Shown here in pieces: positions 50,855-53,171 of a stretch of 64,000 nt of DNA. A program made the position numbers and the translations under genes. This stretch comes from Phytomonospora endophytica (lineage in GTDB: Bacteria > Actinomycetota > Actinomycetes > Mycobacteriales > Micromonosporaceae). Location: NCBI RefSeq assembly GCF_014202425.1, contig NZ_JACHGT010000001.1, positions 103,160-167,159 of the forward strand. Reading direction: 5' to 3'. Each line of letters opens with the position of its first letter. Within the stretch, counting starts at the first letter, position 1. The notes under the pieces were generated by a model, which did no database searches, was not told the DNA's origin, and saw only the letters and a list, made by a program, of their open reading frames with translations.

Positions 50855-51568
50855 TTAGAGGTAGGACATGAAGCCTCGGATGAGGATCTCGATGCCGCGG
50901 TCGAAGCGCTCGTCCTTCTCGGCGTGGACCATGAGCGTCGGGCCGATGTCGGTGAGGTTGGGGTAGTCGTCGGGGTCGAGGTCGCCGAAGTAGTGGGCGA
51001 CGGACTCGGCGACGTTCTCGCGTTCGGTGGGGGTGAGGCGGCGCATGCGCTCCTCCCAGACCTGTTCCTCGGAGACGTATCCCTCGATGAAGGTCGACAT
51101 GTGGTCGCCCGCGGCGGCGATGATCGGCTCGGGCAGGCCGACGGAGCGGAAGAAGGCGATGATCCGCTCCAGTTGCGGCAGCGCCTCCGGGATGAAGGGG
51201 TGCTGGCCGGCCGAGACGCGCGCGAGGTCGCGGTGTTCGCGCAGGGTGTCGCGGATCGAGTGCATCCAGGTGCGCAGCCGCCGCGCCCATTCCTCGGGGT
51301 CGGAGGTCGGTTCGGGGACCTCGGAGGCGAGGAAGCTGCGCAGCCAGATCTGCCGGATCAGCTCGTCCTTGTTGGCCACGTGCGTGTACAGCGAGGAGAC
51401 GGCGACGCCCAGCTCGGCCGCGACGGCCCGCATGGACAGCTTCTCGTGGCCTTCGCGGTTGAGGACCACGTAGGCGGCGTCGACGATCGCGTCGACGCTC
51501 AGCCGCTCGCGCGCGGGGGTCTCCCGGCCCGCGGGGGTGATCCAGGGCAGGGAGGACTGCTTGCTCAT
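50855..51568 (-). CDS. TetR/AcrR-family transcriptional regulator
   Basis: 237 residues. The N-terminal HTH (LSVDAIVDAAYVVL, MRAVAAELGVAVSSLYTHV) is followed by a helical ligand domain of the TetR C-terminal type 1. It is divergent from a DHA2 efflux pump with five CGAAC-N3-GTTCG-like sites between them, so it probably represses both itself and the pump until a toxic ligand binds. TAGTCT ends 6 nt before the ATG with no Shine-Dalgarno, indicating a leaderless mRNA. Confidence 0.93.
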   Translation of the reverse strand: MSKQSSLPWITPAGRETPARERLSVDAIVDAAYVVLNREGHEKLSMRAVAAELGVAVSSLYTHVANKDELIRQIWLRSFLASEVPEPTSDPEEWARRLRTWMHSIRDTLREHRDLARVSAGQHPFIPEALPQLERIIAFFRSVGLPEPIIAAAGDHMSTFIEGYVSEEQVWEERMRRLTPTERENVAESVAHYFGDLDPDDYPNLTDIGPTLMVHAEKDERFDRGIEILIRGFMSYL

Positions 51569-51574
51569 GGGGAC

Positions 51575-51580
51575 AGACTA
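51575..51580 (-). promoter_or_regulatory. Putative leaderless -10 box of the tetR gene
   Basis: TAGTCT on the minus strand, exactly 6 nt before the ATG at 51568. Operator-like site 1 (51589-51601) lies between it and the -35 position. Confidence 0.5.
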
Positions 51581-51588
51581 GCCCATGC

Positions 51589-51680
51589 CGAACAATGTAC
51601 GGGCGGTTCCGAACAGCATTCTTGACGCCGAACAGCGTTCGGTGGTAGAACGGTGTTCGTAGACATCCGAACACTGTTCG
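51589..51680. promoter_or_regulatory. Array of five TetR operator-like sites
   Basis: The 13-bp sites start at 51589 (CGAACAATGTACG), 51610 (CGAACAGCATTCT), 51629 (CGAACAGCGTTCG), 51647 (AGAACGGTGTTCG) and 51668 (CGAACACTGTTCG). Sites 3 and 5 are perfect CGAAC-N3-GTTCG inverted repeats, and site 4 is perfect over 4 bp per arm. Spacing is 21, 19, 18 and 21 bp, about two helical turns, so dimers would line up on one face. Confidence 0.8.
51622..51651 (+). promoter_or_regulatory. Promoter of the DHA2 efflux pump gene
   Basis: TTGACG (51622-51627), an 18-bp spacer and TAGAAC (51646-51651). Operator 2 overlaps the -35 box by one base, operator 3 fills the spacer and operator 4 overlaps the -10 box, which suggests tight repression. 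Confidence 0.6.
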
Positions 51681-51701
51681 TTCATGGGAGAAGAAACCGC
51701 C

Positions 51702-53171
51702 ATGGTCACCGAGACCACCGCCCGGGCCGACACCGCGCCACCGGACACGCCCGCGTACCGCCTGCGCTGGGCGGCCCTCGCCGTCCTGATCGTCGCCGAG
51801 ATCATGGACCTCCTCGACGCCACGATCGTCAACGTCGCCGCACCCGGCATCCGCGCCAGCATCGGCGGCGGCCTGTCCACCATCCAGTGGGTCGTCGCCG
51901 CCTACACCCTCGCTCTCGCCATCGGCCTGATGATCGGCGGACGGCTCGGCGACATCCTCGGCCGCAAACGCATGTTCCTCATCGGCGCCGCCGGTTTCAC
52001 GATCTTCTCGGCGGTCTGCGCCGCCGCGAACGGACCGGCCATGCTCATCGGTGCCCGCTTCGTACAGGGCCTGTTCGGCGCGGTCATGATCCCGCAGGTC
52101 CTCGGCCTGATCCGGGCCATGTTCCGGGGCAAGGAGGCCGGCGCGGCCATGGGCGTGTTCGGTCCCGCCATGGGCCTCGCCGCGATGGGCGGTCCGCTGC
52201 TCGGCGGCTGGCTCGTCGACGCCGACCTGTTCGGCACCGGCTGGCGCGCGATCTTCCTCATCAACATCCCGGTCGGCCTCGTCGTCATCCTCGCGGGCGT
52301 GAAGCTCGTCCCCGAGGTCCGGCAGCCCGCGCCGCCACGCCTCGACGCGATCGGCGCCGTGCTGGCCGCGCTGGGCGCCTTCCTAGTCGTCTTCCCGCTC
52401 GTGCAGGGTCGCGAGGAGGACTGGCCGGCCTGGACCTTCGTCAGCCTCGGCGCCTCGGTGCTCGCCTTCGCCGTCTTCGGCTTCCACCAGGTGCGGCGCC
52501 GCCGTAAGGGCCGGGACCCGCTCGTCGAACCCGCCCTGTTCCGGCGGCGCGAGTTCGTCGGCGGCGTCCTGGTGACCACCATCTTCTTCGGCGCCATGGT
52601 GGGCTTCATGCTGGTGTTCAACCTGTTCGGCCAGATGGCGCTGCACTTCACGGCCTTCGAGGCCGGGCTGTCCCTGGCGCCCTGGTCGCTCGGCACCGCC
52701 ATCGGCGCCGTCGCCGGAGGCGGACTGGCCGCCAAGCTCGGCAGGCACGTCATGCACGCCGGCCTCGCGATCATGACCGGCGGGCTGCTGCTCCTGTGGA
52801 ACACCCTCGACGGACTGCCCCTGCCCGGAACGGGTGGCGACCCCACCCCGTGGACCTTCACGCTCGGCACCGGGGTCAGCGGCCTCGGCATGGGCATGGT
52901 CTTCGCGCCCCTGTTCGCGATCATCCTCAACGCCGTCGACGACGCCGAGATCGGCTCCGCCTCGGGCGTGCTGACCTCCATCCAGCAGTTCGGCGGAGCG
53001 GCCGGGACCGCGGCCCTCGGCACGCTGTTCTTCGAGCTCATCGGCCCCATGGACCGGCCCGACTTCGGGCACGCCGTCCAGGTCACCGTGCTGGTCTGCG
53101 CGGGCCTGTTCGCCGTCACCTTCCTGCTGGGTTTCCTGCTCCCGAAGAAGGCCCGGGCCGACGTCCACTGA
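51702..53171 (+). CDS. MFS multidrug efflux transporter, DHA2 (EmrB/QacA) family, 14 TM
   Basis: 489 residues with about 14 hydrophobic segments. Family motifs: LLDATIVNVAAPGI in TM1, IGGRLGDILGRKRMFLIG (motif A) and LIGARFVQGLFGAVMIP. It exports drugs or dyes using the proton gradient; the substrate is unknown. The ATG at 51702 was chosen because GGGAGAAG lies 9 nt upstream. An earlier in-frame ATG at 51684 would place that sequence inside the coding region. Control by the divergent TetR is strongly indicated by the operator array. Confidence 0.92.
   Translation: MVTETTARADTAPPDTPAYRLRWAALAVLIVAEIMDLLDATIVNVAAPGIRASIGGGLSTIQWVVAAYTLALAIGLMIGGRLGDILGRKRMFLIGAAGFTIFSAVCAAANGPAMLIGARFVQGLFGAVMIPQVLGLIRAMFRGKEAGAAMGVFGPAMGLAAMGGPLLGGWLVDADLFGTGWRAIFLINIPVGLVVILAGVKLVPEVRQPAPPRLDAIGAVLAALGAFLVVFPLVQGREEDWPAWTFVSLGASVLAFAVFGFHQVRRRRKGRDPLVEPALFRRREFVGGVLVTTIFFGAMVGFMLVFNLFGQMALHFTAFEAGLSLAPWSLGTAIGAVAGGGLAAKLGRHVMHAGLAIMTGGLLLLWNTLDGLPLPGTGGDPTPWTFTLGTGVSGLGMGMVFAPLFAIILNAVDDAEIGSASGVLTSIQQFGGAAGTAALGTLFFELIGPMDRPDFGHAVQVTVLVCAGLFAVTFLLGFLLPKKARADVH

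Follow-up and report, generated by a model that had tools for sequence, protein, structure and literature searches.

Known operator arrangements of TetR-family repressors

In textbooks, TetR repressors figure as switches with one or two operators, and synthetic biology uses them as standard parts. In the TetR/tetA system of Tn10, the repressor and pump genes are divergent, and two operators lie over both promoters (PMC3511530). In ActR/actA of Streptomyces coelicolor, three palindromes occupy a 110-bp intergenic region, three complexes form in EMSA, and repression is 23-fold; both for ActR and for SCO7222 of the same organism, three palindromes were found in the footprinted regions and the neighbouring genes are repressed (PMC3511530). 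The divergent intergenic region of SCO7222 (2hxo) carries three perfect copies of TGGAACGNCGTTCCA as operators, seen as three discrete footprints, and the predicted target of SCO7222 is a monooxygenase gene (PMC3511530). SimR/simX (2y2z, 3zql) of the simocyclinone producer combines two separate operators with a divergent MFS pump (PMC5812520). Binding of more than one dimer is described elsewhere in the family: QacR, CgmR and RolR place pairs of dimers on DNA (PMC9210681), MAB_4384 binds as two dimers (PMC5895659), and EthR of Mycobacterium tuberculosis forms a cooperative octamer on a 55-bp operator that combines a pair of long direct repeats with a pair of inverted ones (PMC9210681). For repressors of the type described below, two to three operators are already in print (ActR, SCO7222, SimR). 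No description of TetR arrays with four or more regularly spaced operators was found in an incomplete search of the open-licence literature.

Five palindromes between tetR and a pump gene of Phytomonospora endophytica

The window, a 64-kb stretch of the Phytomonospora endophytica genome, contains five GAAC-N3-GTTC palindromes within 92 bp (51589-51680), flanked by a TetR gene and a divergent gene for an EmrB-type MFS protein. Counted from the tetR side, operator-like site 1 (51589..51601, CGAACAATGTACG) has one mismatch to CGAAC-N3-GTTCG, site 2 (51610..51622, CGAACAGCATTCT) two, site 3 (51629..51641, CGAACAGCGTTCG) none, site 4 (51647..51659, AGAACGGTGTTCG) one, and the pump-proximal site 5 (51668..51680, CGAACACTGTTCG) none. 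The preliminary description had listed five copies or variants of this motif in the 92 bp with start-to-start distances of 21, 19, 18 and 21 bp, and the same values were obtained when the distances were measured again. It had also called the sites phased, a term that does not fit their positions: at 10.5 bp per turn and counted from the pump side, they lie at 0, 0, 257, 189 and 189 degrees, on three faces of the helix.

The motif CGAAC-N3-GTTCG with up to one mismatch occurs at 5 places in the 64-kb window, 4 of them inside the 92-bp array, and with up to two mismatches at 27. With up to three mismatches, 284 occurrences stand against 410 expected, so there is no enrichment, the count over the whole window is uninformative, and the significance of the sites lies in their clustering. 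A chance origin of the array was ruled out: the 160 bp before tetR were shuffled 20,000 times with dinucleotides preserved, and an array of three or more sites never appeared. Recent tandem duplication was ruled out as well, because the gaps within arrays differ from each other, with a mean identity of 0.23 in the window and 0.19-0.42 in nine other chosen arrays.

As read from the sequence, a -35-like box TTGACG (51622..51627, plus strand), whose first base is the end of site 2, and a -10-like box TAGAAC (51646..51651, plus strand), which overlaps site 4, are separated by an 18-bp spacer that holds site 3. TTGACG-N18-TAGAAC is likely the pump promoter, and site 5 probably lies within the pump 5' leader. 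On the minus strand, a -10-like box TAGTCT (plus-strand AGACTA, 51575..51580) stands directly before the tetR ATG; it is a predicted tetR promoter element, the tetR transcript is probably leaderless, and site 1 falls in the presumed spacer of this promoter. These boxes agree with an overlap proposed earlier, namely of the sites with the -35 edge, spacer and -10 box of the pump promoter and with the tetR spacer.

The regulator and the pump

The tetR gene (50855..51568, minus strand) encodes a protein of 237 aa, the predicted repressor of both promoters, in which TetR_N and TetR_C_1 each score above the gathering threshold. Against the tetracycline repressor equivalog NF010319 it reaches 76 bits with a cut-off of 265, and the regulator is therefore not TetR proper. 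The MFS pump gene of EmrB/DHA2 type (51684..53171, plus strand) is listed with a start at 51684, and the start at 51702, which is preceded by GGGAGAAG, is more likely; its product is slightly above the EmrB subfamily cut-off (232.4 vs 230.2 bits). In terms of family assignment, the locus shares with the ActR/SimR-type TetR_C_1 regulators the two domains, ActR and SimR as nearest solved relatives, and a predicted divergent MFS exporter with a shared intergenic region.

The nearest solved relative of the window TetR is ActR, by sequence as well as by fold. One PDB sequence search placed ActR first (E 6e-29) and SimR second (E 1.8e-16), and another, which found 42 sequences, again placed ActR first, with chain 5ojx between ActR and SimR. 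The PDB sequence matches at E 1e-10 include no entry named EthR, QacR or CgmR, and no EthR-named chain is among the 42 sequences; absence at that threshold proves nothing. An AlphaFold2 model built with 12 sequences (mean pLDDT 88.1, pTM 0.78) gave ActR as closest in Foldseek, followed by SimR. In VIA-align 2 the same model had ActR on top (Z 22.0, rmsd 2.5, 203 residues aligned), a small lead because the next TetR rows are at Z 20-21; SimR is absent among the best 50 matches there, which again proves nothing.

Other TetR genes of the same genome

The genome has at least 150 TetR_N matches. A scan that assumed no motif passed 3 of its 24 TetR_C_1 genes, namely the window gene with its five sites and the genes designated L129 and L139. 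L129 (the same gene as L004; G000:C6:211314-211721) has a divergent MFS gene and three TAGCA-type palindromes 20 and 20 bp apart, and by its sequence shows the architecture of the window array with another operator sequence. L127 (G000:C6:41707-42159), a TetR_C_1 gene with four GTACG-type palindromes upstream at spacings of 19, 21 and 18 bp, narrowly failed, with 1 of 40 shuffles as good. At L139 (G000:C4:316374 region), five perfect copies of CGGCGACCCGGCG in 16-bp steps lie upstream of a weak TetR_C_1 match; this 16-bp repeat, unlike an operator, is probably a coding or tandem repeat. None passed in the same scan of 30 other TetR genes, the best 30 of the at least 150 TetR_N matches.

Conservation in the orthologous locus of Actinorhabdospora filicis

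One true orthologue is available: of the 354 genomes of the family, 2 give a match at E 1e-50, and one of these is the own genome. It is the syntenic locus L010 of Actinorhabdospora filicis, in which the TetR is 61% and the MFS protein 74% identical to those of the window, and in both loci the pair is flanked alike by ClpX, a Clp protease subunit and a thioredoxin/TPR protein. The arrangement TTGACG-N18-TAGAAC is the same. Five palindromes, putative operators, are conserved by sequence in the window and L010. Relative to the tetR start they lie at -112, -91, -73, -54 and -35 in L010 and at -112, -91, -73, -54 and -33 in the window, so that four sites keep their distance and site 1 has moved by 2 bp. 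Over the four aligned sites, 39 of 40 half-site bases are identical, as compared with 7 of 12 bases in the N3 centres and 18 of 37 in the gaps. Retention of the half-sites while the gaps drift is the pattern seen when sites are selected separately. Loss of the outer sites in close relatives had been named beforehand as an outcome that would refute the proposal; in the single orthologue the outer sites are kept.

Arrays in related loci

For a survey of related loci, 63 loci (L010-L072) were fetched by similarity to the TetR, through patterns of short peptides, the recognition segment YTHVANKD being part of them. An array was defined as at least three CGNAC-N3-GTNCG sites in the 420 bp that precede tetR, with spacings of 15-24 bp allowed. 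This motif is a relaxed form, adopted once the same loci had been inspected, and controls were scored with it as well. Arrays were found in 54 of the 63 loci, a figure conditional on such segments; because the fetch patterns include the recognition segment, it is the prevalence for TetRs whose reading head is similar and not for TetRs at large. By the survey rule 9 of the 63 lack an array. Among the controls, 1 of 3,150 shuffled upstream regions had an array, and none turned up in 772 stretches taken from elsewhere in these loci. In the ActR-like loci sampled, such arrays are thus a feature of the class. In the 62 surveyed loci other than L010, the TetRs are 26-46% identical to the window TetR over the matched part, which makes a common mechanism an extrapolation.

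Counted without trimming, the arrays have 3 sites in 3 loci, 4 in 17, 5 in 27, 6 in 1, 7 in 3 and 8 in 3; after weak end sites are trimmed, 3 sites are found in 4 loci, 4 in 21, 5 in 23, 6 in 2, 7 in 3 and 8 in 1. The earlier view that the number of sites is unusual is upheld against the classic two-operator TetR and falls away within the ActR-like loci, where four to five sites are commonest (44 of 63, trimmed). Where two adjacent sites each have no more than one mismatch, the spacing is 18 bp in 71 cases, 19 in 94, 20 in 19, 21 in 1 and 23 in 1, so that good sites stand 18-20 bp apart in 184 of 186 cases. The class favours steps of 18-19 bp and not 21 bp, the length of two of the four steps in the window array and of 1 in 186 in the class. 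Weak internal sites are in register in six of seven instances, with both steps 18-19 bp (the seventh has 17 and 19). Weak end sites are in register (18-20 bp) in only 2 of 10 and may, judged by these positions, be chance matches. The longest clean ladder, at L050:1845-1989, has eight sites with no mismatch to CGNAC-N3-GTNCG, in steps of 19, 18, 19, 19, 19, 19 and 19 bp.

Redundancy was reduced by greedy clustering, in place of single-linkage clustering, which merged most loci (arrays in 7 of 12 representatives at 70% and in 2 of 4 at 50%). Greedy representatives have arrays in 33 of 41 at 80% identity, 20 of 27 at 70% and 13 of 18 at 60%, and their spacings are 18-20 bp in 116 of 118, 70 of 71 and 45 of 46, respectively. 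In a tree made from 81 of 101 parsed entries, arrays are found in two large groups, and the window and L010 form a separate pair; several deep forks are weak. The truncated protein L071 was left out of both analyses.

At the genome level, exact three-site arrays are present in 72 of 354 family genomes, and a reversed control pattern gave 0 matches in any row. A stricter pattern searched phylum-wide matched 3 of 149 genomes and missed the window's own array. One of the three, G482:C39:586-654 (L172, L174), has CGCACCCAGTGCG-type repeats in 19-bp steps and is probably an unrelated short tandem repeat. As the pattern is too strict and one of its three genomes is probably unrelated, this search says little on prevalence.

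A further group of loci (L086-L115) was fetched by the array pattern itself and was kept out of the prevalence counts. The promoter pattern TTGAC-N17..20-TA[GC]NNY is found in 19 of 29 array-fetched loci as compared with 4 of 63 similarity-fetched loci, 3 of these 4 being without an array, and TAGAAC-N3-GTTC in 24 of 29 as compared with 3 of 63. By these rates, the promoter layout is a trait of those array-fetched loci that are relatives of the window, and not of the other clades.

Array and target gene

A divergent MFS gene is present in 36 of the 63 loci, 35 of which have arrays; after trimming, these have 3 sites in 1 locus, 4 in 6, 5 in 22, 6 in 2, 7 in 3 and 8 in 1. A divergent hydrolase is present in 15 of the 63, all with arrays (3 sites in 1, 4 in 14). 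In L013, L018, L037, L044 and others, the TetR gene is divergent to a hydrolase of the beta-lactamase family (PF00144) type, with mostly four operator-like sites. PF00144 was shown for L013 and L037, and the remaining hydrolases were assigned by similarity to L013. Neither gene is divergent in 12 of the 63 loci, 4 of which have arrays. An array is thus found in 50 of 51 loci with a divergent MFS or PF00144-type hydrolase gene and in 4 of 12 without such a neighbour. A pump-specific device was ruled out by the 15 hydrolase loci with their three to four sites. Since arrays also stand beside PF00144-type hydrolases, the array goes with the regulator type at a divergent promoter and not with pumps. 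The number of sites varies with the type of target, a link that relatedness within groups may explain.

Proposed mechanism and alternatives

A model is proposed in which the 92 bp are a five-operator array for the divergent ActR-like TetR, and filling of the array by several dimers represses both genes. The model is considered fairly probable, and within it we infer binding, repression, ligand release and cooperativity. By analogy with the family, each 13-bp palindrome would take one dimer. Because the centres are only 18-21 bp apart, bound dimers would lie edge to edge along a path that winds around the DNA. Steps of 18-19 bp equal 1.7-1.8 turns, so that successive dimers would be rotated and several DNA faces covered. 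The dimers would extend over the pump -35 edge, spacer, -10 box and early transcribed region as well as over the tetR promoter spacer. Without ligand, the array would be filled, probably aided by contacts between neighbouring dimers, and tetR and pump would both be off. A TetR_C_1 ligand, probably a pump substrate, would release the dimers and turn on pump and tetR together. Coverage by several dimers and repression are likely, while true cooperativity between the dimers has about even odds; the cooperative or filament-like repression suggested in the preliminary description is thus a candidate mechanism. The array is best read as adjacent dimers packed together, with binding and cooperativity as predicted components of this reading.

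The operators could also be filled singly, in which case each of the two promoters would need one or two blocking sites, the extra sites would raise occupancy and shape the dose response, and the dimers would make no contacts. This is a serious possibility, if not a probable one. The three separate EMSA complexes of ActR indicate stepwise filling and count against strong cooperativity; taken with the three discrete footprints of SCO7222 (PMC3511530), they suggest that dimers may bind independently, and SimR acts on two separate operators (PMC5812520). In the window, sites 2-4 suit the geometry of one promoter, whose spacer holds site 3 and whose -10 box is overlapped by site 4, and the outer steps are 21 bp as against 18-20 bp in the class. 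Independent filling, however, does not predict that 184 of 186 pairs, drawn from many genera, would be spaced 18-20 bp apart, that ladders of seven to eight sites (L033, L050) would keep the same step, or that weak internal sites would fall in register, as 6 of 7 do. The held step, the long ladders and the register of the weak internal sites favour neighbour contact, and the regular spacing in relatives fits dimers side by side.

Alternatively, only part of the sites would be real operators, the rest being decayed or duplicated and functionless. The mismatches in sites 1, 2 and 4 point this way and count against the array reading, and site 1 is the one displaced by 2 bp in L010. All five sites are kept in L010, however, the half-sites of the four aligned sites are identical in 39 of 40 bases while the gaps have drifted, and the dissimilar gaps speak against recent duplication, all of which leaves this reading very unlikely. 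A further reading is that the sites serve another regulator or are contested by several, in a genome with at least 150 TetR_N matches where the window TetR is a predicted binder only. Against this, the motif follows the TetR type, as the difference between loci with and without a divergent MFS or hydrolase gene (50 of 51 vs 4 of 12) indicates; the exact 13-mer occurs at 13 places in the own genome (26 strand hits), two of them in the tetR/pump promoter, and the exact three-site pattern occurs there once. Service to another regulator is likewise regarded as very unlikely.

For the class as a whole, the model of adjoining dimers can be extended in a tentative form, held at somewhat less than an even chance: a subgroup of actinobacterial TetR_C_1 repressors may assemble a spiral of three to eight adjoining dimers on a rigid ladder of 18-20 bp, coating both divergent promoters on most DNA faces. 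The length of the spiral would be set by the number of sites, usually four at hydrolase promoters and usually five, up to eight, at MFS promoters.

Significance

The conserved arrays in related actinobacteria suggest that this type of repressor closes promoters by coating them with multiple copies. A natural subgroup with up to eight operators at a near-fixed step would suit measurement of how site number and spacing relate to the strength, steepness and leak of repression, and it would show how actinobacteria hold drug pumps tightly off. Furthermore, the array may mark the target in DNA, given its distribution between loci with a divergent MFS or PF00144-type hydrolase gene and those without.

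Comparison with known systems

Among the described systems, ActR (2opt, 3b6a, 3b6c) is closest, in that the window TetR also has a divergent MFS gene and several palindromes; the window differs in having five palindromes as compared with three weaker ones in ActR, and the two proteins are 32-34% identical. The operator core GAAC-N3-GTTC is common to SCO7222 and the window, although SCO7222, unlike ActR, is a more distant structural match of the window TetR (Foldseek rank 40). The divergent MFS gene is likewise shared with SimR, and the five sites differ from SimR's two operators, as they do from the two-operator arrangement of TetR/tetA of Tn10. The model resembles EthR in that a single promoter region takes up three or more TetR-type dimers; unlike the 55-bp EthR operator, the window would offer its dimers five separate 13-bp palindromes spread over 92 bp.
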